Positions 2,649 to 60,821 of a DNA stretch of 64,000 bases are shown here, in pieces. Every line of letters starts with the position of its first letter. The first letter of the stretch is position 1. The position numbers and the translations under genes are program-made. The DNA lies in assembly GCA_021778315.1 (NCBI GenBank), contig JAJYCQ010000007.1, positions 1 to 64,000 of the forward strand, read 5' to 3'. The notes below the pieces were generated by a model. That model ran no database searches. It saw only the letters and a list, made by a program, of their open reading frames with translations, and was not told where the DNA came from. The stretch comes from Acidobacteriota bacterium (GTDB taxonomy: Bacteria; Acidobacteriota; Terriglobia; Terriglobales; Acidobacteriaceae).

Positions 2649-4433
2649 ATGAGTCTTACCTCCCCCACCCACCCCGTTTCGTTACCCTTCGACATTTCAG
2701 ACCGCAAAATCGCCTACTTCTCCATGGAGATTGCGCTCGCCAAGACTTTGCCAACCTACTCCGGAGGTCTCGGCATGCTCGCCGGTGATTCGCTTCGCTC
2801 GGCTGCGGATACCGGTGTGTCCCTGGTGGCGGTCTCCCTGGTGCACCGTCGCGGCTACTTCGAGCAGCATCTCGACGGCTCTGGCCAACAGACGGAGAGC
2901 GACGTGGTGTGGTCGCCTGAGACCACGCTTCCTTCTGCCGAACAGACCATTTCGATTCAGATGCAGGGTCGCGCTCTTCAGCTTCGCGCCTGGCGCTTTG
3001 ATGTCATCGGCGTCACCGGCCACATCATTCCGGTCTTTCTGCTGGACGCAGACATAGAGGGCAATGACCCCTGGGACCGTCGCCTTACCGATCATCTCTA
3101 TGGTGGTGACACGTACTATCGGCTCTGTCAGGAGACGATTCTCGGCCTTGGCGGTATCCATCTGCTTCATGCGCTTGGATGCCAGCCCGAAGTTTGCCAC
3201 ATGAACGAAGGCCATGCCGCTCTGCTGACGATCGGCCTCCTGGAAGCTCGTCTCGCCCCTGCTCCGTTGTCCTCAGCCAGCGAGGCTGACGCAGAAGCGA
3301 TCCGGCAGCGGTGCGTCTTTACGACCCACACGCCGGTCCCCGCGGGCCACGATAAGTTTGGGCTGGATCAGATGATGCATGTCCTCGGACAGGAGCGGTC
3401 GGCTACCATCGAACGCTTTGGCTGCCTGCACAATGAGCTGCTCAACATGACGTACCTCGCGCTGCGTTTCTCGCGCTACGTCAACGGTGTATCGATGCTC
3501 CACGGCCAGGTTTCGCAGCAGATGTTCCCGGAATATCCGGTCCATGCGATCACCAACGGCGTGCATGCGGCGACCTGGCTATCGCAGCCTTTCCAGGAAC
3601 TGCTGGACAAAGAAATCCCTGCATGGCGTCACGATAACCAATACCTTCGCTCGGTATACGGCATTGAGTCCGAGGTGATCGACGCGACTCACGCACTGGG
3701 CAAGCAACGGCTGTTCGCGACGGTGAAGGAGCGGACCGGGGTAGACCTTGATCCGACCTTGCTCACATTGGGTTTTGCACGCCGCGTCGCGACCTATAAG
3801 AGAGCCAATCTACTATTGCAATCGCCGGAGCGACTGGTTGAGATCGCCAATAAGATTGGTGGCCTGCAGATCCTGATGGCCGGCAAGTCCCATCCTGCGG
3901 ACAATGCCGGCAAGGGCCTCATCCGCGAGATTTTCGCGGCTGCTGCCAGGCTCGATTCCAGCAAGCTTCGGATCTTGTATCTCGAGAATTACGACTGGGA
4001 ACTCGGCGAGCAACTGACCAACGGAGTCGACGTCTGGCTCAACACGCCGTTGCGTCCGTATGAGGCGTCGGGTACCAGCGGCATGAAGGCCGCCATCAAC
4101 GGCGTGCCCAGCCTCAGTGTGATGGATGGCTGGTGGATCGAGGGCTGCGCGGAGAATGTAACCGGCTGGTGCATCGAGAACAGCGAAGATGAGGCGATTC
4201 AGGCGGGCCGGCTCTACGACAAGCTTGAGAATGCTGTGGCTCCGCTCTACGCCGACAAGGCTCGCTGGGCCGAGATGCGGAGGCATTGCATCGCCATCAA
4301 CGGGACCTTCTTCAACACGCATCGCATGCTTGGCCAATACGTTGCGAACGCTTACTTCCCGCCATCGGCGTCGATTCCCGCTTCCAACCAGGTGGTAGTC
4401 AACGACGAAGTATCCCAGACCGTTCTGGCCTAG
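2649..4433 (+). CDS. glgP: Alpha-glucan phosphorylase (GT35), short form
   Basis: Predicted 594-residue alpha-glucan family phosphorylase, releasing glucose-1-phosphate from glycogen or maltodextrin with pyridoxal phosphate. The N-terminus IAYFSMEIAL and YSGGLGMLAGD are typical of the short bacterial type. The C-terminal EASGTSGMKAAINGVPS carries the PLP lysine (about Lys480), followed by SVMDGWWIEG. It is shorter than members with an N-terminal DUF3417 extension, which is absent here. The Shine-Dalgarno is weak: AAAAGGA lies about 15 nt before ATG 2649. The 265-bp upstream gap is AT-richer than its surroundings and probably holds the promoter, though no clear -35/-10 pair was found. It fits glycogen turnover together with glgC at 14335. 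Confidence 0.88.
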   Translation: MSLTSPTHPVSLPFDISDRKIAYFSMEIALAKTLPTYSGGLGMLAGDSLRSAADTGVSLVAVSLVHRRGYFEQHLDGSGQQTESDVVWSPETTLPSAEQTISIQMQGRALQLRAWRFDVIGVTGHIIPVFLLDADIEGNDPWDRRLTDHLYGGDTYYRLCQETILGLGGIHLLHALGCQPEVCHMNEGHAALLTIGLLEARLAPAPLSSASEADAEAIRQRCVFTTHTPVPAGHDKFGLDQMMHVLGQERSATIERFGCLHNELLNMTYLALRFSRYVNGVSMLHGQVSQQMFPEYPVHAITNGVHAATWLSQPFQELLDKEIPAWRHDNQYLRSVYGIESEVIDATHALGKQRLFATVKERTGVDLDPTLLTLGFARRVATYKRANLLLQSPERLVEIANKIGGLQILMAGKSHPADNAGKGLIREIFAAAARLDSSKLRILYLENYDWELGEQLTNGVDVWLNTPLRPYEASGTSGMKAAINGVPSLSVMDGWWIEGCAENVTGWCIENSEDEAIQAGRLYDKLENAVAPLYADKARWAEMRRHCIAINGTFFNTHRMLGQYVANAYFPPSASIPASNQVVVNDEVSQTVLA

Positions 4434-24449: not shown

Positions 24450-24475
24450 ACCTAATCCCTGTTCCCTAATCCCTC
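24450..24475 (-). repeat. GGGATTA-type heptamer array (reverse)
   Basis: The complement reads AGGGATTA, GGGAACA and GGGATTA, so the unit order is A-B-A. It sits directly beyond the hisF stop, at the border of the AT-richer insertion, and follows a run of G at 24429-24442. Confidence 0.8.
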
Positions 24476-34650: not shown

Positions 34651-34973
34651 TGCAGAGGATGCGGGATTTGCTGCGGGGATCGCTGGGGAGGAGTTTGCGG
34701 GAGTTGCCGGATGAGGATCGGCTGGCGGCTGCGTGGCCGGTGGCTTGCGGGAGTGCGCTGGCGGGGCATGGGGAGGTGCGGCATCTCGATCTGGAGGGAG
34801 TGCTGCATGTGCGGGTGGTGGGGGCGGAGTGGATGCAGCAGTTTCTGCAGGTGCGGTCGGCGCTGGCCAATGACCTGGGGAGGATCGCGGGGGTCCGGCT
34901 CAACGGGATACACTTCGAAGAGCAGGGCGTGGCGCGGGTTCGTGCGGTGAAAAGAACAGGGATTAGGGATTAG
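34650..34973 (+). CDS. DUF721 (DciA-like) protein with repeat-derived tail
   Basis: A 107-residue protein of the DUF721 family, some members of which (DciA) help load the replicative helicase. Recognisable blocks are LPDEDRLAAAWPVACGSALAGH and LHVRVVGAEWMQQFLQVRSALANDL. ATG 34650 follows AGGAGG at ideal distance and overlaps the upstream stop by 1 nt. The last residues, RTGIRD, and the stop codon are encoded by a GGGATTA heptamer array. Confidence 0.72.
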   Translation: MQRMRDLLRGSLGRSLRELPDEDRLAAAWPVACGSALAGHGEVRHLDLEGVLHVRVVGAEWMQQFLQVRSALANDLGRIAGVRLNGIHFEEQGVARVRAVKRTGIRD

Positions 34974-34990
34974 GGCACAGGGATTAGGAG
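34955..34990 (+). repeat. GGGATTA heptamer array between DUF721 gene and gatC
   Basis: Units in order are AACAGGGATTA, GGGATTA, GGGCACA, GGGATTA and GGAG. The array supplies the C-terminus and stop of the upstream gene and, as TTAGGAG, the Shine-Dalgarno of gatC. Confidence 0.9.
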
Positions 34991-34996
34991 ATGGTG

Positions 34997-35326
34997 ATGA
35001 GTGAGGCGGCGGGAGCGGTTACGTTGGAGGAGGTTCGGCATGTGGCGGACCTGGCGAACCTGGAGTTGACGGCGGAAGAGTTGCCGCAGATGGCACGGGA
35101 TTTGAATGCAATTCTGGGGCATATTGCGCAGTTGAATGAGCTGGATACCTCGGCTGTGGAGCCGATGGCGCAGGTGGGGGAGGCGCTGGGGTATACAGCG
35201 GCGGATGCGGGCGAGACGCTGCGGCCGGATGCGGTGAAGCCTTCGGTGGACCGTGCGGCGGTGATGGAGGAGGCTCCGGAGAGCGATGGACGGTTCTTCA
35301 AGGTGCCGAAGGTAATTGAGAGATAG
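34997..35326 (+). CDS. gatC: Asp-tRNA(Asn)/Glu-tRNA(Gln) amidotransferase subunit C
   Basis: A 109-residue GatC, the small chaperone-like subunit of the GatCAB transamidosome that converts Glu-tRNA(Gln) and Asp-tRNA(Asn). LEEVRHVADLANLELTAEEL at the start and MEEAPESDGRFFKVPKVIER at the end are diagnostic. ATG 34997 is chosen because TAGGAG lies 6 nt ahead (from the heptamer array). ATG 34991 overlaps that site. gatA follows; gatB is not in the window. Confidence 0.95.
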   Translation: MSEAAGAVTLEEVRHVADLANLELTAEELPQMARDLNAILGHIAQLNELDTSAVEPMAQVGEALGYTAADAGETLRPDAVKPSVDRAAVMEEAPESDGRFFKVPKVIER

Positions 35327-35333
35327 AGATAAA

Positions 35334-35367
35334 GCAGGGATTAGGGAACAGGGATTAGGGATTAGGA
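35334..35367 (+). repeat. GGGATTA heptamer array (A-B-A-A) between gatC and gatA
   Basis: GCA then units GGGATTA, GGGAACA, GGGATTA and GGGATTA, then GGAAG. This is the archetypal order. It gives four G-triplets with 4-nt loops and ends in the purine-rich site before the gatA start. Confidence 0.92.
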
Positions 35368-35375
35368 AGAATGGG

Positions 35376-36851
35376 ATGGAAGATATGGGTGTGGAGTCGG
35401 TGAATATGATCGAGAATTTGTCGCTGGCGGAGGCTCGGGCGGCGGTGGTGGAGGGTCGCGTGTCGGCGGTAACGCTGGCGGCCGAGCATTATGAGCGGAT
35501 TGCCGTGCTGGATCCGGAGATTCATAGCTACCTGGCGCTGACGCGGGATCGCGCGATGGCGCAGGCGGAGCGCGTGGATTCGGCGGCGAAGGCGGGTGAT
35601 CCGCTGGGGCCGCTGGCTGGCGTTCCGGTGGGAATCAAGGACGTGCTGGCGATGCGCGGCGCGGTGACGACGGCGGGGTCGAAGATTCTGGAGGGGTACC
35701 ACCCTCCGTACGATGCGACGGCGGTGGCGCGGCTGGAGGCGGCGGGCGCGGTGGTGCTGGGGAAGTTGAACTGCGATGAGTTTGCGATGGGATCGTCGAA
35801 TGAGAATTCGGCGTATGGGCCGGTGAAGAATCCGAGGGCGCTGGACAGGGTTCCGGGGGGGTCGTCGGGCGGGTCGGCGGCGGCGGTGGCGGCGGGGATG
35901 TGTGTCGCGAGTCTGGGGACGGATACGGGGGGATCGATTAGGCAGCCGGCGGCGTTTTGCGGCGTGGTGGGCGTGCTGCCAACGTATGGGCGCGTCTCGA
36001 GATACGGGCTGATTGCGTTTGCGTCGTCGCTGGATCGTGTGGGGCCGTTTGCTCGGTCGGTGGAGGACGCGGCGGTGATGCTAGAGGTGCTGGCGGGGCT
36101 GGATGAGATGGATGCTACGTCGTCGCATGAGGCTGTGGGCAAGTATGCGGCGGAGGCGGCGAAGGACGTTGCGGGGCTGCGGATTGGTGTTCCGGAGGAG
36201 TACTTCGGGGAGGGGCTGGACCCGGAGATTCGGGCTGCGATAGAGCGCACGCTGGATGGGCTGCGGGCGGCGGGGTGCTCGATTCACAAGGTGAGTTTGC
36301 CGCACACCCGGTATGCGGTTCCGACCTATTACGTGATTGCTACGGCGGAGGCGAGCTCGAATCTTTCGCGGTTCGATGGAGTGCGGTTTGGGATGCGGTC
36401 GAGCGATGCGGGGACGCTGTCGGCGATGTTCCGAAATACTCGCGATCAGGGGTTTGGAGCGGAGGTAAAGCGGAGGATTCTGCTGGGAACCTATGTGCTT
36501 TCAGCGGGATACTACGATGCCTACTACCGGAAGGCGCAACAGGTACGGGCACTGCTGACGAAGGATTTTGTGGAGGCGTTTGCGAAGGTGGATGCGATTG
36601 TTGCTCCGGTAACGCCGACTCCGGCGTTCAAGCTGGGCGAGAAGACGGATGATCCGCTGCAGATGTATCTGGAAGATATATATTCGGTGGCCGCGTCGCT
36701 GGCAGGGATTTGCGGGATGAGTGTGCCCTGCGGGGAAACACAGGCCGGGCTGCCGATCGGGGTGCAGGTTCTGGGCAAGCACTTTGATGAGGCGACGATG
36801 CTGCGCGTTGGGGCAGCGGTGGAGAAACAGGGCTTAGGGAACAGGGCTTAG
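35376..36851 (+). CDS. gatA: Asp-tRNA(Asn)/Glu-tRNA(Gln) amidotransferase subunit A
   Basis: A 491-residue amidase-signature glutaminase of GatCAB. The catalytic Ser-cisSer-Lys set is in GIKDV (Lys), PGGSSGGSAAAVAAGM and GTDTGGSIRQPAAFCG (Ser). PTYGRVSRYGLIAFASSLDR is GatA-specific. ATG 35376 follows AGGAAG; ATG 35385 and 35406 are alternatives. The extreme C-terminus (KQGLGNRA) is encoded by a degenerate heptamer array, so the tail is repeat-derived. Confidence 0.93.
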   Translation: MEDMGVESVNMIENLSLAEARAAVVEGRVSAVTLAAEHYERIAVLDPEIHSYLALTRDRAMAQAERVDSAAKAGDPLGPLAGVPVGIKDVLAMRGAVTTAGSKILEGYHPPYDATAVARLEAAGAVVLGKLNCDEFAMGSSNENSAYGPVKNPRALDRVPGGSSGGSAAAVAAGMCVASLGTDTGGSIRQPAAFCGVVGVLPTYGRVSRYGLIAFASSLDRVGPFARSVEDAAVMLEVLAGLDEMDATSSHEAVGKYAAEAAKDVAGLRIGVPEEYFGEGLDPEIRAAIERTLDGLRAAGCSIHKVSLPHTRYAVPTYYVIATAEASSNLSRFDGVRFGMRSSDAGTLSAMFRNTRDQGFGAEVKRRILLGTYVLSAGYYDAYYRKAQQVRALLTKDFVEAFAKVDAIVAPVTPTPAFKLGEKTDDPLQMYLEDIYSVAASLAGICGMSVPCGETQAGLPIGVQVLGKHFDEATMLRVGAAVEKQGLGNRA

Positions 36852-36852
36852 G
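36828..36852 (+). repeat. GGGATTA-type heptamer array at gatA 3' end
   Basis: Units GGGCTTA, GGGAACA and GGGCTTA followed by GGGG, in frame at the gatA end, encoding QGLGNRA and the stop. It is a C-for-A variant of unit A. Confidence 0.8.
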
Positions 36853-36861
36853 GGCGCGGTG

Positions 36862-39657: not shown

Positions 39658-39679
39658 GCTGTGCTTGGGGGGAGGAGGT

Positions 39680-39736
39680 TCTAGCTTAGCTTCTAGCTTC
39701 TGGCTTTTAGCTTCTAGGTTCTAGCTTCTAGCTAAG
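39680..39736 (-). repeat. GCTTCTA heptamer array
   Basis: About eight 7-nt units of the type GCTTCTA (with GCTTCTG, GCTTTTA and GGTTCTA variants), ending GCTAAGG. Same period as the GGGATTA arrays but different sequence. A second site is at 47415. Confidence 0.85.
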
Positions 39737-39945
39737 GGCAAAGGCAAGGGCAACGGCGAATACAGGGGTCCTTCGCTTCGCTCAAGGATGACGGGTGTTT
39801 TGCGGGGTGTTGGGGGGAGCAAGGGCAAAAGCAAAGGCAACGGCAAAAGCAAAGGCAAAAGCAAGTGCAACGGCAACGGCAAAAGCAAGGGCAAAGGCAA
39901 GGGCAAAAGCAAAGGCAAGTGCAACGGCAACAGTAACGGCGAAGG
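39736..39945 (+). repeat. Hexamer arrays plus AAGGATGACGGG element
   Basis: A composite repeat. GCAANN hexamers at 39736-39759 are followed by an element at 39762-39800 (CCTTCGCTTCGCTCAAGGAT then GACGGG). A long hexamer run 39820-39945 of GGCAAA, GGCAAC and GCAAAA-like units follows. Translation of this stretch gives only Lys/Gly/Ser low-complexity peptides, so it is not a gene. Confidence 0.88.
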
Positions 39946-40594: not shown

Positions 40595-40647
40595 GGTTGT
40601 TAGTTGTTAGTTGTTAGTTGCTAGTTGTTGGTTGTTGGTTGTTAGTG
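40595..40647 (+). repeat. TTGTTAG heptamer array
   Basis: About seven units, TTGTTAG (x3), TTGCTAG, TTGTTGG (x2) and TTGTTAG, directly upstream of the FmdE-like gene start. Again period 7. A shorter relative lies at 45549. Confidence 0.88.
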
Positions 40648-40992
40648 GATAGGGGGTAGGGATGGGGTGAGTTGCTTGCCCGTTTTGATGATACTGCCGG
40701 GGGCATGGGTGGGGAACCCGGGCTTGTGCGGATGGGGAGAACGAGCAATAGCAACGGCGAAATACAGGGGTCTCTCCACTGCGTCGCGCAAGAGGCCGCG
40801 CGGCTCCGGTCGAGATGACGGGATCTTTACAGCTTCTTGCTCTTCTTCGTCGTCGTCTTCTTCTTCGTCGGGATCGTTGCGTGGATGGGGCACCCTGAGG
40901 TCCTGCGCGGACGGCTGGGGTTTGAGGCGGTGGTATGGACGCTCTCTGATCCCTGTTCCCTGATCCCTGTTCCCTGCTTCTATGCTGTTGGT
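40648..40992. repeat. Mosaic intergenic region before GH13 gene
   Basis: This gap of about 345 bp is assembled from repeat pieces. There are GGGTGGGG/GGGCACCC fragments related to the palindromic element (40703, 40887) and an element ending CGAGATGACGGGAT (40757-40825). Simple TTCTTCGTCGTC runs (40838-40870), a GTCCTGCGCGGACGG element (40900-40914) and a reverse GGGATTA-type array (40948-40978, order B-A-B-A with GGGATCA) follow. No gene is seen. Confidence 0.7.
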
Positions 40993-44469: not shown

Positions 44470-44760
44470 CTTGGGATGTTTGGGCGGGTGCGGGGGAGAA
44501 CGGGAGACAGCAGGTTCCTCGGCTTCGCTTGGAATGACAGACAGAAAGGCAAGGGCAACAGCAACAGCCAATACAGTGGCCCTTCGCTTCGCTCCAGGAT
44601 GACGGGAGCTTGGGCGGTGTTTGGGAGGGCAACTGCAACTGCAAGAGCAACGGCAACGGCAACTGCAACTGAAAGAGCAACTGCAACTGCAACGGCAACT
44701 ACAGATCCCTGCGGGATGACAGACAGAAAGGCAAAGGCAAGGGCAAAGGCTAGAGCAGGG
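44470..44760 (+). repeat. Composite hexamer/element repeat region
   Basis: Order: an element ending TTCGCTTGGAATGACAG (44507-44545); hexamers (44545-44569); CCTTCGCTTCGCTCCAGGAT element (44572-44606); hexamers with GCAACT/GCAACG units (44626-44702); GATCCCTGCGGGATGACAG element (44702-44727); hexamers (44728-44756). Open frames here encode only repeat peptides such as VILERSEGPLY on the other strand. No gene is seen. Confidence 0.88.
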
Positions 44761-45360: not shown

Positions 45361-45623
45361 AGATCTCTAATTCCTTTCCTTCGGGGGAGGGTATATCGCG
45401 GTAGCTGCTGCGCCAGGGTGAAAAATGATGCCAGACGTAGAACACAGCGTTGGCACCTGCGCTGAGAACACGATACTACTTTGTCAACAGTGCTGTGCTG
45501 TAGAGTTCGACGCAGAATGGTGGATTGGAGTTACCTCTCGTGGTTCTCGGTTGTTGGTTGTTGGTTGTTGGACTCACGGTCTTGCGCGGACGGCGGGAGT
45601 AAGAACGGGTTGGCGGGTAGGGG
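45361..45623. repeat. Intergenic region with GTTGTTG heptamers and GCGCGGACGG element
   Basis: Gene-free. The bactofilin promoter must lie near 45370-45450. TTGTTGG heptamers occur at 45549-45570 and a GTCTTGCGCGGACGG element at 45579-45593. Confidence 0.6.
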
Positions 45624-47414: not shown

Positions 47415-47528
47415 AGCTTCTAGCTTCTAGCTTCTGGCTTCTAGCTAAAGACAACCACTGGTAGAGAGTTTTCGTAGGAGCCTTTTGTTTTTAGCTAGAA
47501 GCTAGAAGCTAAGGGCCAAAAGCTAAGG
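47415..47528. repeat. Inverted pair of GCTTCTA heptamer arrays
   Basis: A forward array at 47415-47447 (GCTTCTA x4 type) and a reverse-complement array at 47489-47528 (TAGAAGC units ending AAGCTAAGGAG) flank about 40 nt. They could form a long hairpin between infA and rpmJ. The last unit supplies AAGGAG, the rpmJ Shine-Dalgarno. Confidence 0.85.
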
Positions 47529-47651: not shown

Positions 47652-47733
47652 GCAGGGAACAGGGATTAGGGATTAGAAGTGCCCCTGACTCAAGAGTTTT
47701 TCTAATCCCTGAGCCCTGATCCCTAATCCCTGC
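47652..47733. repeat. Inverted pair of GGGATTA heptamer arrays
   Basis: Forward units GGGAACA, GGGATTA and GGGATTA at 47652-47678 and reverse-complement units at 47702-47733 (four units) flank a short spacer containing TTTTT. They could pair into a hairpin with the look of a terminator or pause site between rpmJ and rpsM. Confidence 0.88.
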
Positions 47734-50715: not shown

Positions 50716-50767
50716 GGCAGGGATTAGGGAACAGGGATTAGGGATTAGAAGAACTGATCCCTGTTCC
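50716..50767. repeat. GGGATTA heptamer array (A-B-A-A) with short inverted arm
   Basis: GCA, GGGATTA, GGGAACA, GGGATTA, GGGATTA forward at 50716-50749, then a reverse part TGATCCCTGTTCC at 50756-50767. It is directly after the rpoA stop. Confidence 0.9.
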
Positions 50768-51163: not shown

Positions 51164-51189
51164 TCCTAATCCCTAATCCCTAATTTCTA
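51164..51189 (-). repeat. GGGATTA heptamer array (reverse)
   Basis: CCTAATCCCTAATCCCTAAT, three or more reverse-oriented units, between the four-helix-bundle gene and rplQ. Confidence 0.88.
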
Positions 51190-54052: not shown

Positions 54053-55633
54053 ATGGAGATTGATCTTGCGGGTGCAGGGGTTCCGGTAGCGGCGGTTCGG
54101 TCGCAGGTGTGCGTGGTGGGGGCGGGGATTGCGGGACTGACGGTGGCGCGGAGGCTGGCGCAGCGCGGCGTGGATGTGGTGGTGATCGAGGCCGGCGGGC
54201 GCGAGGTGGAGGAGGCGGGGCAGCAGCTGTTTGCGGAGGCGGAGCTGACTGGGCGGGCGCATGTGGGAACGATCGATGGACGGGCGAGGGTGCTGGGGGG
54301 AACGTCGGTGTGGTGGGGCGGGCAGGTGCTGGGGATGACGCGCGATGCGGCTGCGGCGTGGCCGGTGGCGTGGGAGGAGATGGAGAGATTCCTGGCTGAG
54401 GCGGAGCAGTTGGTCGAGGTGGACTCGCTGCCGTATGAGGGGGCGGAGTTTTTTGCGGCGACGGGCGCGGCGGTGCCTCCGATGATTGCGGAGTTGGGTG
54501 AGGTGGATGCGAGGATGTCGAAGTGGATGGGGTTCTCGCGGAGGAATTTTGCGGGGACGGTGGGGAAGGAGTTGCTGGCGCATCCGAGGGCGAGGATTTA
54601 TTTGCATGCGCAGGTGAGGGAGTTGTTGCTGACCGCGTCGGGAGAGCGATTGGAGGCGGTTGTGGTGCGGACGGCCTCGGGTGCGGCGGTTCGATTCGAA
54701 GCGGAAGAGTTTGTGCTGGCGACGGGAACGGTGGAGACGTCTCGGCTGCTGCTGGCTTCGCGGACGGTTGCGGCGGAGGGTGTGGGGAATGCGAATGACC
54801 AGGTGGGGCGAGGGTTTCATGATCATGTGACGCTGCCGGTGGCAACGCTGACGGGAGCTGCGCGGGAGAGAATTTTGCGGGAGCTTCGGCCGTGGGTGTT
54901 GGGCGGGACGGTGCATAGCGTGAAGTTTGAGGCGTCGCGAAGGTTGCGGGAACGGTTGGGAGTGAATCCGGTGCTGGCGCATGTGGCGCTGGATGAGCCG
55001 GAGGGTTCGGGGGTTGCGGTGGTGCGGGAGTTGTTGACGGCGATGCAGCGCGGAGAGTTTGGGAGGGCGTTGACGACGCATGCGGCGCGGGTTCCGGGGG
55101 CGGCGGTGGAGGCGGTGAGATTGGCTTGGGAGGCGAAGGTGCGGCGGCGGAGATTCGTGTCGGAGGATGCGGTGGTGAAGCTGCAGATGAATGTGGCGCA
55201 GGATGTGGGGTCGCAGTCGCGGGTGATGCTGGATGAGGGGAGGGATGCGAGTGGGATGCCGCGGGTGGTGGTGGATTGGCGCGTGTCGGCGAATGAGATT
55301 GCGACGCTGCAGAGGTATGCGGGGTATCTGCGGGAGAGGTTTGAGGGGATGGGTTTGAGGGACGTGGAGTGGGTACGCGAGATGTTTGTGGAGGGCGCAG
55401 AGCTGCCGGGGATGGAGGACGCGCGACATGCGATGGGCGGGGCTTGCATGGGAACGGATCCTCTGAGCAGCGTGGTGGATGCGGAGATGAGAGTGCATGG
55501 GGTTGCGAATCTTTCGATTGCCAGTGCTGCTACGTTTCCGGATGGGAGCGCGCAGCTGCCGACGTTGACGATGATGGCGCTGGCGCTGCGGCTGGCAGAA
55601 CGGATAGGGCAGGGATTAGGGAATAGGGATTAG
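54053..55633 (+). CDS. GMC-family FAD oxidoreductase with repeat-derived tail
   Basis: A 526-residue flavoprotein. The FAD motif VCVVGAGIAGLTVARRLAQR lies near residue 20 and ends in VIEAGG. GTSVWWGGQVLG and FVLATGTVETSRLLLAS are typical of the GMC family. The C-terminal block is HAMGGACMGTDPLSSVVDA, then SIASAATFPDGSAQLPTLTM. It probably oxidises an alcohol or sugar. The last residues (GQGLGNRD) and stop come from a heptamer array. Confidence 0.88.
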   Translation: MEIDLAGAGVPVAAVRSQVCVVGAGIAGLTVARRLAQRGVDVVVIEAGGREVEEAGQQLFAEAELTGRAHVGTIDGRARVLGGTSVWWGGQVLGMTRDAAAAWPVAWEEMERFLAEAEQLVEVDSLPYEGAEFFAATGAAVPPMIAELGEVDARMSKWMGFSRRNFAGTVGKELLAHPRARIYLHAQVRELLLTASGERLEAVVVRTASGAAVRFEAEEFVLATGTVETSRLLLASRTVAAEGVGNANDQVGRGFHDHVTLPVATLTGAARERILRELRPWVLGGTVHSVKFEASRRLRERLGVNPVLAHVALDEPEGSGVAVVRELLTAMQRGEFGRALTTHAARVPGAAVEAVRLAWEAKVRRRRFVSEDAVVKLQMNVAQDVGSQSRVMLDEGRDASGMPRVVVDWRVSANEIATLQRYAGYLRERFEGMGLRDVEWVREMFVEGAELPGMEDARHAMGGACMGTDPLSSVVDAEMRVHGVANLSIASAATFPDGSAQLPTLTMMALALRLAERIGQGLGNRD

Positions 55634-55638
55634 GGATT
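55606..55638 (+). repeat. GGGATTA heptamer array at end of GMC gene
   Basis: GCA, GGGATTA, GGGAATA, GGGATTA, GGGATTC, in frame at the 3' end of the coding region and providing the stop (TAG). Confidence 0.88.
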
Positions 55639-55668: not shown

Positions 55669-56313
55669 GTGGCTTCCTTCACGCGTAAAGAGAGATTGAT
55701 GCTGGCGATTGTGCCGCCGATGGCGGCGCTGCTGATTCGTGTGTTGGGGGCTACGCTGCGATATCGCGATGTGAATGCGGAGGGGACTCCGAATGGGCAT
55801 ACGATGCCGGGGCCGACGGTGTTTGCATTTTGGCATTGCACGATGCTGACTTCGGCGCACCGGTTTAGGAATTTGGGGATTGCGATTTTGATTTCGCGAT
55901 CGTTTGATGGAGAGTTGATTGCGCGGACGGTGGAGCGGCTGGGATTTTTGGCGGTGCGGGGATCGAGTTCGCGGGGAGGTGCGGCGGGATTGAAGGGCAT
56001 GGCGGAGGCGTATGCGGCGGGGCACCGGTGCGCGTTTACGGCGGATGGGCCGAGAGGGCCGGCGAGGGTGGCGAAGGCCGGGCCGGTGCAGCTTGCGGAG
56101 TTGGCGGGGGCGACTTGGATTGGGGCTTATCATGCGCAGCCTTCGAGGGCTTGGTATTTGAAGAGCTGGGATCGATTTATGATTCCGAAGCCGTTTTCTA
56201 CGGTGACGTTTGGATGGCCGGCGCATGTGAAGCCGGAGTTGGAGCTTGTGCAGCGGGCGATGGATGAGGCCGTGGCGATGGCTCAGATGCAGGGATTAGG
56301 TATTAGGGATTAG
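55669..56313 (+). CDS. DUF374 lysophospholipid acyltransferase-like protein
   Basis: A 214-residue protein of the DUF374 group (LpxL/PlsC-related fold). [15 protein letters not shown] (HxxxxxH-like), [40 protein letters not shown] and [14 protein letters not shown] are typical. GTG 55669 starts it; ATG 55699 is possible. The C-terminal QGLGIRD and stop are repeat-derived. It would act at the membrane on lipids; the substrate is unknown. Confidence 0.84.
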
Positions 56314-56320
56314 GGATTGG
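56290..56320 (+). repeat. GGGATTA heptamer array at end of DUF374 gene
   Basis: GCA, GGGATTA, GGTATTA, GGGATTA, GGGATTG. It overlaps the DUF374 C-terminus and stop, and lies just before the queA start. Confidence 0.88.
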
Positions 56321-57452: not shown

Positions 57453-57494
57453 GGCAGGGATTGAAGGGCAGGGATTAGGGGATAGGGATTAGGA
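57453..57494 (+). repeat. GGGATTA heptamer array after queA
   Basis: GCAGGGATTG, AAGGGCA, GGGATTA, GGGGATA, GGGATTA, GG, directly after the queA stop. Confidence 0.85.
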
Positions 57495-57507
57495 GTGCAA
57501 GTGCAGA

Positions 57508-57760
57508 AGCAGATTCCTCCGCTGCGCTGCGGAATGACAGGCAGAAAAGCAAGTGCAAGAACGAATGCAAGAGCAAGAGCAAGAGCAAAGGCAAGAGCAA
57601 AGGCAAAGGCAAGAGCAAAGGCAAAGGCAAAGGCAAGAGCCAATATAGTGGTCCTTCGCTTTGCTCTAGGATGACGGGATTTTTGGGGGTGCTAGGGAGT
57701 GTAAGAGCAACTGCAAGAACAAGAGCAACTGCAGATCCTTACGGGATGACAAATAAAAGA
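57508..57760 (+). repeat. Composite hexamer/element repeat region before polA
   Basis: Order: element GATTCCTCCGCTGCGCTGCG with GACAGGCAGAAAAGCAAG (57508-57545); hexamers such as GAGCAA and GGCAAA (57546-57642); element CCTTCGCTTTGCTCTAGGAT (57643-57678); hexamers (57698-57732); element GATCCTTACGGGATGACA (57732-57757). No gene is seen. The polA promoter is not obvious. Confidence 0.88.
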
Positions 57761-57830: not shown

Positions 57831-60821
57831 ATGATGACGAACAAAAACATGACGACGGATAAGCCACCGATTTATTTGTTGGACTCGATGGCGTTTATTT
57901 TTCGGGCGTATCACGCGATGGCTCGCATGAGGCCGATGACGACGCGGACGGGGATACCTACGGCGGCAACTTATGTCTTTGTGAACATGATTAATAAGTT
58001 GCGCGCGGATTTTAAGCCGGAGTATCTGGCGGCGGTGTATGACGTAGGGGCTCCGCTGCATCGGTATGAACTGGCTACGCAGATGAAGGGCGTGCAGAAG
58101 TTTAATAGCAAGACGCAGCAGTTTGAGACGGTGGAGTATGCGGGGTACAAGGCGAATCGCGCGGAGACTCCTCCGGATTTAATTCAGCAGCAGCCTTATA
58201 TTCGGCGGGCGCTGGAGGCGTTCAGGATTCCAATTTTGTACTACGAGGGGTTCGAGGCTGATGATGTGATCGGCACGCTGAGCCGGCAGCTTTCGGCGCT
58301 GGGGCACAAGGTGTTTGTGGTGTCGTCGGATAAGGACATGATGCAGTTGGTGAATGCGGACGTGTCGATCTTGAATCCTACGAAGGACAATTTAATTCTT
58401 GATCCGGCGGGAGTGGAGAAGGTGCTGGGGGTTCCTCCGGAGCGCGTGGTGGATGTGATGGCGCTGCGGGGAGATGCGATTGACAATATTCCGGGAGCTC
58501 CGGGAATTGGGGACAAGGGGTCGGTGGAGTTGATTCAGCAGTTCGGCACGGTGGAGGGCGCGCTGGATCATGCGGACGAGGTGAAGAAGAAGACGTATCG
58601 CGAGTCGCTGCAGAATAATCGCGAGAATATTTTGCTGTCGAAGGAGTTGGTGACGATTGATACGTCGGTGCCGATTGAGTTTTCGATTGACGCGATGCGG
58701 ACGCGGCCGGTGGACAATGCTGCGTGTCGAGCGCTGTTTACGGAGCTTGAGTTTACGACGATGTTGAAGGACCTGGCTCCGGATGCGGATGCGGTGCTGA
58801 CGACGTATAACGTGAAGGCGACGGCGGAGGACGTGGCGCAGTTGTTGATGGAGGCTCGTGCGGCGGGGCATTTGGCGATTGCGATGGCGTCGAATTCGCA
58901 GGCGGTGGCGGAGGAGATGGGCGCGGATGCGGCGGCTGATGCGGAGGTGGAAGCGGAGCCTGGTCCGGCGGAGACGATGTCGTTGTTTGGTGCCCCGGAG
59001 GCTGAGGTGAAGGCGGCGGTGAGCGCGGTGGATCCAGCGTGCCGGCTGGGGTTGGCGGTGACGGCGGCGGAGGCGATGGAGGTGTCGCTGGAGATGCCGG
59101 GGGTTCGCGAGGCGTTAATGGATGCGACGCTGCCGAAGCAGGTGCATGATCTGAAGGCGGTGCTGCGTGCGCTCGAACCGCATGGTGTTGAGCTGGCGGG
59201 AGCGGTGACGGATGTGATGCTGGAGAGCTATCTGCTGAACCCTACGCATAGCTCGCACACGCTGGTGGATATGGCGGCGCGGACTACAAGCCTGGCGCTG
59301 ACGCACCAGGTGACGAAGGATAATCCTGCGGACCCGAAGAGGTTGGCAGAGGCCGCCGCTGCGGTGGTGCGGTTGGCGAAGACGCTGGGCGAGCAGATGC
59401 AAGAAGCAGGGATTAGGGGACAGGGATTAGGGATTAGCGAGAGGCTGGTGGATGAGCCAGGGTTGGGTGGGGCGATTACGACGGAAATGATGTTTGGAAG
59501 AACAGGGACTAGGGAACAGGGATTAGGGATTAAAAAGCGGGTCGAGGGCGAGTCGGCTTCGGCGTTGAATGAGGACTCGACGCTGGAGGATGTTTATTGG
59601 AAGTTGGATTTGCCGCTGGTGCGGGTGCTGTTGCAGATGGAGCGGGTGGGCGTGCGGGTGGATAGTGATGTGCTGCGGGCGATGAGTTCGCGGCTGGCGG
59701 TGACGATCGATGATTTGGCGGAGCAGGTGTATGCGAGTTCGGGGCATCGATTTAATATCAACTCGCCAAAGCAGTTGGGGGATGTGCTGTTCAATAAGAT
59801 GGATCTGCCGAAGCCGATGAAGCATGGCAAGGGCAAGGTGATTTCTACGGCGCAGGATATTTTGGAGGATTTGGCGGAGCGGACGGATGTCGAAGGACAT
59901 GAAGTGCCGGCGCTGGTGTTGGAGTATCGGCAACTGCAGAAGTTGAAGGGGACGTATCTGGATGCGTTGCCGGCGCTGGCGGATTCGCAGGGGCGGATTC
60001 ATACGACGTTCAATCAGGTGGGTACGGCTACGGGGCGACTGAGTTCGACGAATCCGAATTTGCAGAATATTCCGGTGCGGACGGCGGTGGGGAGAGAGAT
60101 TCGCGCGGCGTTTATTGCGGCGGAGGGGAATCTTTTGATGTCGGCTGATTATTCGCAGATTGAGTTGCGTTTGATGGCGCATTTTTCGCAGGACCCGCTG
60201 CTGCTGGATGCGTATCGCACGGGGAAAGATATTCATACGCTTACGGCGGCGGAGGTGTTTGAGGTGGACGCGGAAACGATGGATAAGGAGACTCGCGCGC
60301 GGGCGAAGGCGGTGAACTTCGGAATTGTGTATGGTATTTCACCGTTTGGTTTAGCAGCGCAGTTGGGGATCGATCAGAAGATTGCGAAGGAATATATTGC
60401 GCGATATTTTGAGCGGTATAAGGGTGTGGCGGAGTTTATTGAGCGGACGCTGGAGACGGTGCGGCGCGATCAGTCAGTGCGGACTGCGTTTGGGAGGGTG
60501 AGGCCGATTCCGGATATTCAATCGCGGAATCCGAATCAGCGCGGGTTTGCGGAGAGGACGGCGGTGAATACTCCTCTGCAGGGAACGGCGGCGGACTTGA
60601 TCAAGATTGCGATGTTGCGGATTGATGCGGCGATGCGGTCGCGGAATTTTAAGTCGGTGATGACGCTGCAGGTGCATGACGAGCTGCTGTTTGATGTGGT
60701 GCCGGAGGAGGCGGAGGAGTTGCAGGAGCTGGTGAAGCGGGAGATGGAGTCGGCTGCGGAGTTTAGTGTGCCGATTGTGGCGGAGGTTGGTTTGGGAAAG
60801 AATTGGCGGGATATCAAGTGA
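57831..60821 (+). CDS. polA: DNA polymerase I with two repeat-derived inserts
   Basis: A 996-residue PolA. Residues 15-310: 5'-3' exonuclease (YLLDSMAFIFRAYHAM, FEADDVIGTLSRQL, VVSSDKDMMQLV, GAPGIGDKGSVELI). About 330-510: proofreading-domain remnant, lacking the DTET motif (HLAIAMASNSQ here), so probably inactive. 600-996: polymerase (motif A LMSADYSQIELRLMAH, motif B RARAKAVNFGIVYG, motif C LQVHDELLFDV). Residues 525-536 and 557-569 (AGIRGQGLGIS, TGTREQGLGIKK) are encoded by in-frame heptamer arrays in the linker before the polymerase domain. ATG 57831 is used. Confidence 0.94.
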   Translation: MMTNKNMTTDKPPIYLLDSMAFIFRAYHAMARMRPMTTRTGIPTAATYVFVNMINKLRADFKPEYLAAVYDVGAPLHRYELATQMKGVQKFNSKTQQFETVEYAGYKANRAETPPDLIQQQPYIRRALEAFRIPILYYEGFEADDVIGTLSRQLSALGHKVFVVSSDKDMMQLVNADVSILNPTKDNLILDPAGVEKVLGVPPERVVDVMALRGDAIDNIPGAPGIGDKGSVELIQQFGTVEGALDHADEVKKKTYRESLQNNRENILLSKELVTIDTSVPIEFSIDAMRTRPVDNAACRALFTELEFTTMLKDLAPDADAVLTTYNVKATAEDVAQLLMEARAAGHLAIAMASNSQAVAEEMGADAAADAEVEAEPGPAETMSLFGAPEAEVKAAVSAVDPACRLGLAVTAAEAMEVSLEMPGVREALMDATLPKQVHDLKAVLRALEPHGVELAGAVTDVMLESYLLNPTHSSHTLVDMAARTTSLALTHQVTKDNPADPKRLAEAAAAVVRLAKTLGEQMQEAGIRGQGLGISERLVDEPGLGGAITTEMMFGRTGTREQGLGIKKRVEGESASALNEDSTLEDVYWKLDLPLVRVLLQMERVGVRVDSDVLRAMSSRLAVTIDDLAEQVYASSGHRFNINSPKQLGDVLFNKMDLPKPMKHGKGKVISTAQDILEDLAERTDVEGHEVPALVLEYRQLQKLKGTYLDALPALADSQGRIHTTFNQVGTATGRLSSTNPNLQNIPVRTAVGREIRAAFIAAEGNLLMSADYSQIELRLMAHFSQDPLLLDAYRTGKDIHTLTAAEVFEVDAETMDKETRARAKAVNFGIVYGISPFGLAAQLGIDQKIAKEYIARYFERYKGVAEFIERTLETVRRDQSVRTAFGRVRPIPDIQSRNPNQRGFAERTAVNTPLQGTAADLIKIAMLRIDAAMRSRNFKSVMTLQVHDELLFDVVPEEAEELQELVKREMESAAEFSVPIVAEVGLGKNWRDIK
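59407..59438 (+). repeat. GGGATTA heptamer array inside polA (copy 1)
   Basis: Units GGGATTA, GGGGACA, GGGATTA, GGGATTA, in frame (A-B-A-A). The B-type second unit lies in the phase where a second A unit would make TAG, so the frame stays open. Confidence 0.92.
59500..59532 (+). repeat. GGGATTA heptamer array inside polA (copy 2)
   Basis: Units GGGACTA, GGGAACA, GGGATTA, GGGATTA, then AAA. Same order and same reading phase as the copy 93 nt upstream. Confidence 0.92.

Follow-up and report, generated by a model that had tools for sequence, protein, structure and literature searches.

DNA polymerase I (PolA; 996 amino acid residues) of the window, a 64,000-nucleotide stretch from an Acidobacteriota bacterium (Acidobacteriaceae; GenBank assembly GCA_021778315.1, contig JAJYCQ010000007.1, positions 1 to 64,000), contains two short peptides that are best explained, with a probability of roughly 0.8 for the explanation in full, as being encoded by in-frame captured copies of a dispersed heptamer repeat that is G-rich and has four G-tracts. 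The polA gene (57831..60821, + strand) is an open reading frame (ORF) with matches to Pfam families 5_3_exonuc_N, 5_3_exonuc, DNA_polI_exo1, and DNA_pol_A, and the top PDB sequence matches of its product were PolA, Taq, and Klenow. The site-1 array (59409..59437, +) consists of the units GGGATTA, GGGGACA, GGGATTA, and GGGATTA followed by G, and encodes GIRGQGLGIS within codons 526-536 (AGIRGQGLGIS). The site-2 array (59505..59533, +) consists of GGGACTA, GGGAACA, GGGATTA, and GGGATTA followed by A, and encodes GTREQGLGIK within codons 558-569 (TGTREQGLGIKK). The order of units was A-B-A-A at both sites (A'-B-A-A, when the first unit of site 2 is distinguished), with one variant unit per array; the DNA and its translation confirmed an earlier note on this sequence that had reported two such arrays in frame in polA.

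The placement of the arrays given in that note, between the exonuclease-like and polymerase domains, was also correct: the exonuclease-like (RNase H-like) domain, which may be degenerate to judge from the matched Pfam family, spans residues 417-486 (59079..59288, +; PF22619), and the polymerase domain residues 613-993 (59667..60809, +; PF00476). In alignments of 81 and 127 PolAs, the inter-domain region (residues 505-592; 59343..59606, +) consisted of a conserved helix and, after it, a hypervariable linker. An AlphaFold2 model based on a 41-row alignment (mean predicted local distance difference test (pLDDT), 80.6) had pLDDT values lower than 50 at residues 1-7, 356-402, 533-576, and 665-667; site 2 lay within the segment 533-576, and site 1, which comes after a long helix (504-530), straddled the edge of this segment.

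With four A units (GGGATTA), every frame is closed on both strands. An ABAA array can be read through in one frame in each direction, and polA of the window uses the forward one. The earlier note had proposed that the B unit at position 2 saves the frame at a point at which an A unit would create TAG. Although the TAG logic was right, a B unit at position 2 was the consensus of the family, and its interpretation as a frame-saving adaptation of polA was rejected because position-2 B is family-wide and because one forward frame of ABAA is open in any case. Since position-2 B was also found in arrays of the window outside polA (at 35337, 50720, and 55612, the last with GGGAATA), the TAG pattern reflects the frame that survived, not a polA-specific change.

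The same repeat was dispersed in the window and in related genomes. Ten arrays with at least four G-tracts of the same period were detected in the window, and none in 200 first-order Markov shuffles. Among the eight outside polA, three lay over stop codons (34959, 36830, and 55612), three were intergenic (47707, 50720, and 57471), and the remaining two (35337 and 40951) were in the 5' part of ORFs, ahead of the Pfam domain. In all of the loci examined, 28 of 162 arrays overlapped the stop codon of a same-strand open frame of at least 150 codons, some of these frames possibly being spurious. The exact consensus 29-mer (GGGATTAGGGAACAGGGATTAGGGATTAG) was present in nine copies, including site 1 of polA, in the sister genome (G001); of 300 genomes sampled from the family, 9 contained it (0 for the backwards control). 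This four-unit form recurred in both the window and G001, and longer and shorter arrays also occurred. Copies of the GGGATTA/GGGAACA family appear to lie for the most part between genes, frequently at the 3' end of a gene, either singly or as convergent inverted pairs.

PolA relatives were obtained in one scan (the best 80 of 538 candidates; together with the window PolA, the 81-PolA alignment); W hereafter denotes the window PolA, and L, P, and G numbers denote loci, proteins, and genomes, respectively. In this alignment, the site-1 peptide was found in W, L001, and L002 (in L001 and L002 in the same frame and from near-identical DNA), and the site-2 peptide in W and, in a degenerate form, L001. 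Relatives that align on both flanks and lack both peptides, which the earlier note had proposed as confirmation, were found in L003, L004, and L028 (82-84% identical in the best segment; L003 carries a different, GGAAG-type array at site 2), supporting in-frame capture. The refuting case, the same peptides in distant PolAs that lack the DNA repeat, was not seen: the peptide was array-encoded in all four peptide-bearing PolAs with readable DNA (W, L001, L002, and L125). The array of L125, whose PolA is 73% identical to W, looks like a separate gain. On the other hand, capture was not a clean addition. The site-1 region was 12 nt longer than in L136 (88% identical) though the array is ~30 nt, and site 2 was longer by one residue than in L136 and equal in length to that of P0003; given these small gains, the arrays stand in place of native linker sequence, and the insertion claimed earlier thus holds as capture of a repeat with replacement of the native linker. 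In a side observation, L008 and L015 (records titled Verrucomicrobia and Rhodanobacteraceae) carried Acidobacteriota-like polA, and these bins therefore look mislabelled.

When PolA DNA was examined in 111 entries (duplicates included), arrays of at least three tracts were detected in 12, representing eight distinct genes and 18 tracts, all of which mapped to residues 343-346, 390-398, 527-534, or 558-583 of W. Twelve were in the low-pLDDT segments 356-402 and 533-576 (a tract starting there being counted), three (site 1) were on the edge, one was just past it, and the other two, both in L135, were at 343-346, a confidently modelled, tight loop between a helix and a strand. The arrays belonged to different families: GGGATTA/GGGAACA in W, L001, L002, L125, and one tract of L135; GGGYYCA-like in L005, L116, and L135; and GGAAGYA in L003. 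Orientation also varied, with a reverse array in L001 and forward-reverse inverted pairs in L125 and L135, and the peptides from different families and orientations were unrelated (EQGLGIR, RVQGSG, SRKQEVG, and NPYSLIP). The reading frame was intact in all eight distinct array-bearing PolAs read as DNA, including L005, whose record is titled Granulicella mallensis strain X5P3.

Turnover was estimated on a 122-row FastTree tree constructed from an alignment without the linkers. The 120 proteins listed of 132 from a homolog search were pooled with the loci, after P0001, P0002, P0014, P0015, and P0120 (copies of loci) and proteins shorter than 900 amino acid residues had been left out; from the pool of 210, 32 C-terminus duplicates, 55 rows without the linker motif, and one short row were removed, and eight motif-less rows were retained as outgroups. 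The motif-less rows that were dropped include L028, L136, and P0068, in which the linker is present but has GPGGA or a cut end. The tree required at least five changes in presence at site 1, and at least 13 in presence and 26 in class at site 2; these figures are rough because peptide regular expressions set the classes where DNA was absent. Close relatives also differed: L003 and P0051 (97.0% identical outside the linker) had GGAAG-type and GGGTTC-type peptides, respectively, P0060 and P0078 (96.9% outside the linker) differed in the presence of an array, and W and P0012 (95.6%) had different families in the same region.

Several linkers contained other unusual peptides. At site 2 of the L002 linker (3865-4137), an IPFGDD peptide was encoded by a segment (GATCCCCTTCGGGGATGAC in L002) resembling another intergenic repeat of the window, and site 2 of P0046 and P0114 had IPFGDD or IPFGND, which likewise seems to stem from a different intergenic repeat. 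Two linkers of the L020 PolA had one odd peptide in common (ALSEVERVASE), as did two linkers of the L016 PolA (PHLDSEMW-like), and a similar one occurred once each in L019 and L034; further repeat families have perhaps entered these four PolAs in frame.

The repeat load of whole genomes was assessed in 27 genomes by counting 24-mers per family (23-mers for GGAARYA), with overlapping matches counted separately and polA copies included. GGG-type arrays in polA were found in six of the nine genomes with at least ten GGG-type matches and in none of the 18 others (Fisher p = 2.8e-4, with the cut-off of ten being picked after the counts were known and kinship uncorrected). The backwards control of GGGAHYA also matched in part (e.g., 9 vs 47 in G001) because arrays partly match when read backwards; those of GGGYYCA and GGAARYA gave 0. 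A rule that the polA array is the dominant repeat of the genome fitted G001, G002, G018, and G020, was equivocal for G006 (10 GGGAHYA and 18 GGGYYCA matches), failed for G007 and G003, and was rejected.

Internal in-frame arrays were detected in 11 genes with Pfam domains besides polA: PriA (L185, with three arrays), PP-loop/TilS-type (L215 and L222), MnmG (L179, and L220/L228 as one gene), Mur ligases (L085, L214, and L217), Lhr (L094), and AMIN-amidase (L156 and L199). The names TilS, MurG, and Mpl are those that we take to correspond to the matched domains. Among 20 array-containing ORFs scanned with Pfam, 14 had domains and six did not (L166, L184, L091, L093, L212, and L219); the 14 were reduced to 11 genes by counting L220/L228 once and by setting aside two arrays ahead of the domain, at window 40837 and in L172 (N-terminus of a MurG-type gene, ahead of the MurG-type domains). 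Part of the arrays in these other genes fell within the Pfam domain matches. Overall, 51 of 135 distinct arrays (32/85 + 19/50) lay within an ORF of some kind, a count that takes in polA copies and spurious antisense ORFs; since the loci were those returned by searches and thus non-random, we claim no rate. The earlier statement that essential-type genes rarely carry intergenic repeats fails in this clade, in which PriA-, TilS-, MnmG-, Mur-ligase-, Lhr-, and amidase-type genes are affected.

Concerning the form of the repeat, 150 distinct arrays of at least three tracts were compared; neighbours no more than 150 bp apart were convergent in 19 cases, on the same strand in five, and divergent in none, and most arrays of the window were single. 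In RNA energy prediction, the single arrays tested gained 7.5 to 11.2 kcal/mol when quadruplexes were allowed (site-1 array alone: -11.2 vs 0.0 kcal/mol), and the pair of L125 was predicted to form a hairpin of -41.9 kcal/mol. In the cell, the DNA or RNA may fold as a G-quadruplex (single array) or a hairpin (pair), and the peptides are presumably translated and serve as neutral linker filler.

Four other explanations were considered. Replication slippage may have expanded short G-rich seeds into arrays within the linker itself, which evolves fast, with nothing imported. Linker codons are indeed duplicated in tandem in L007 (DQEEA repeats) and L134 (a doubled IPKDSPELGGAIT), and the window contains unrelated period-7 arrays; however, slippage alone leaves unexplained the exact A-B-A-A 29-mer dispersed over the genome, reverse arrays beside forward ones, and the differences in family between PolAs that are 97% identical, and is improbable. 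A true mobile element (MITE/REPIN-like), mobilised as the convergent inverted pair by a transposase in trans and leaving single arrays as remnants, ranks somewhat higher, though still as unlikely: all 19 opposite-strand neighbours were convergent and inverted pairs lie in frame in polA of L125 and L135 and, judging from the peptides, in the L179 MnmG, but no target-site duplication was seen relative to the array-less L136 and L004 (84-88% relatives), in which comparison native sequence was replaced, and arrays of the window were mostly single. It is very doubtful that selection maintains the peptides as a functional motif of this PolA. They are retained in W and L001, where 0 of 8 fourfold sites differed in the arrays vs 64 of 434 outside the linker, too few sites to weigh (strong codon conservation of the arrays between W and L001 was dropped as a claim for this reason); no labelled array was found in 73 of the 122 tree rows at site 2 or in 112 at site 1, and families and orientations yield unrelated peptides. 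Least credible of all is an assembly or binning artefact: errors are common in repeats, and many relatives come from metagenome bins, but the frame was intact in every distinct array-bearing PolA, including that of the G. mallensis strain.

For in-frame capture of the dispersed repeat, templated replacement fitted the spread best, transposition of a convergent pair being possible. Copies at other places in the genome would serve as templates in a process that replaces the target sequence (candidates are conversion with G-runs as anchors, template switching, and break repair), and the copies that enter coding sequence would survive when they land in a tolerant loop and leave the frame open. In the Granulicella clade, polA has probably been entered and overwritten many times at approximately residues 356-405 and 526-585 (in L135, at the tight loop 343-346). 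Several results weighed against capture. Neither a donor copy nor a target-site duplication was identified for the polA arrays, and because W and L001 have both sites in common, both events predate their split. The polA array of G007 was GGGYYCA-like and its genome had 23 GGGAHYA and two GGGYYCA matches; that of G003 was of the GGAAGYA type and its genome had 0 strict matches (with three mismatches allowed, polA and one more). Array-rich genomes without polA arrays also existed (G025, G026, and G028; for GGAARYA, G005, G010, and G014), and most of the 122 tree rows were protein-only, with classes assigned by peptide regular expressions.

Among known systems, the G-rich heptamer repeats of Xanthomonas and Nostoc (units GGGNATC / GGGGA(C/T)T) were the closest. 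As far as the accessible text of PMC4692102 describes them, they share the 7-nt GGG units, preference for four units, dispersal, location near stops, convergent pairs, and G-quadruplex potential; they are mostly intergenic, and in Xanthomonas 7% and 11% of the repeats at least partly overlap an ORF. The present repeats differ in their units (GGGATTA/GGGAACA, GGGYYCA, and GGAARYA) and host (Acidobacteriota) and in repeated in-frame entry into housekeeping enzymes with swapping of families, a series not described in that text. The repeat is, therefore, a sister kind to the G-rich heptamer quadruplex repeats (Rehm et al. 2015), and not that repeat. Rickettsia palindromic elements, according to the accessible portions of PMC2229807 and PMC10969869, are palindromes of ~105-150 bp that are similarly dispersed, fused in frame into conserved protein genes, and tolerated; unlike them, the present repeat is a G-rich array of 29-31 nt or a convergent pair of ~80-100 nt, several families alternate at one site, and the polA sites of the window are single 29-nt arrays on one strand, not palindromes. 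The heptamer repeat works like a Rickettsia palindromic element and is not one itself. It also resembles small mobile repeats of the REP/MITE type (PMC2229807, in the part accessible) in being short, dispersed, and at times hairpin-paired, but differs in that the present data showed neither inverted termini nor duplication of the target, nor a link to a transposase, for which no search was made. Among the titles and abstract openings inspected in the open-access literature, to which our search was confined, none reported these repeats in Acidobacteriota proteins, nor did the accessible parts of PMC7015867, PMC4060949, and PMC3910553.

The other arrays of the window were as follows. On the + strand, arrays lay across the stop of a 108-aa ORF (34959..34989), in the first codons of an amidase ORF (35316-36851), ahead of its Pfam domain (consensus A-B-A-A; 35337..35367), over the stop of the amidase gene (36830..36853), over that of a GMC oxidoreductase gene (55612..55635), and at the end of a DUF374 gene (56291..56318); the last three yield alike C-terminal tails (QGLGNRA, QGLGNRD, and QGLGIRD, respectively, each followed by the stop). 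Two further + arrays began 5 nt past the RNA polymerase alpha gene, which we take to be rpoA from its matched Pfam domain (50720..50743), and 19 nt past a queuosine-synthesis gene upstream of polA (57471..57494). On the - strand, an array of GGGAACA/GGGATCA was in the 5' part of an ORF, ahead of an alpha-amylase domain (40951..40974), and short arrays of three tracts were at 24457..24473 and 51164..51180. A convergent inverted pair was found at 47655..47730 (+, 47655-47671; -, 47707-47730). The unrelated period-7 tandem arrays (TTCTAGC, GTTGTTA, AGCTTCT, and TGGTTGT) were at 39679-39733, 40596-40646, 47415-47446, and 45541-45571, and a 7-nt period as such seems to be favoured in the window. 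Hexamer arrays (GCAAGA, GCAAAG, GCAACT type) and the palindrome TTCCTCCGCTGCGCTGCGGAA occurred at 57480-57760, 39734-39930, and 44628-44750; some adjoined heptamer arrays, as though intergenic spaces host several repeat types. An Rfam scan of the window detected two tRNAs and nothing else.

With these results, in-frame repeat capture, of which Rickettsia is the best-known case, extends to soil bacteria and to a heptamer repeat that is prone to form quadruplexes; in annotation, peptides from arrays should not be taken for functional motifs. The many filled, empty, and swapped sites within one conserved gene make the mode of spread (transposition, conversion, or template switching) and the repeat-derived share of linker variation in housekeeping proteins testable. 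More tentatively, and with the odds somewhat against it, Granulicella-type Acidobacteriota may harbour a protein-invading system of quadruplex-forming heptamer repeats: loops of tRNA, cell-wall, and replication enzymes would receive copies of arrays and of convergent pairs in either orientation, and the families at one site would be swapped by exchange with genomic copies. If so, PolA, itself obliged to copy such repeats, would be continually rewritten by them.

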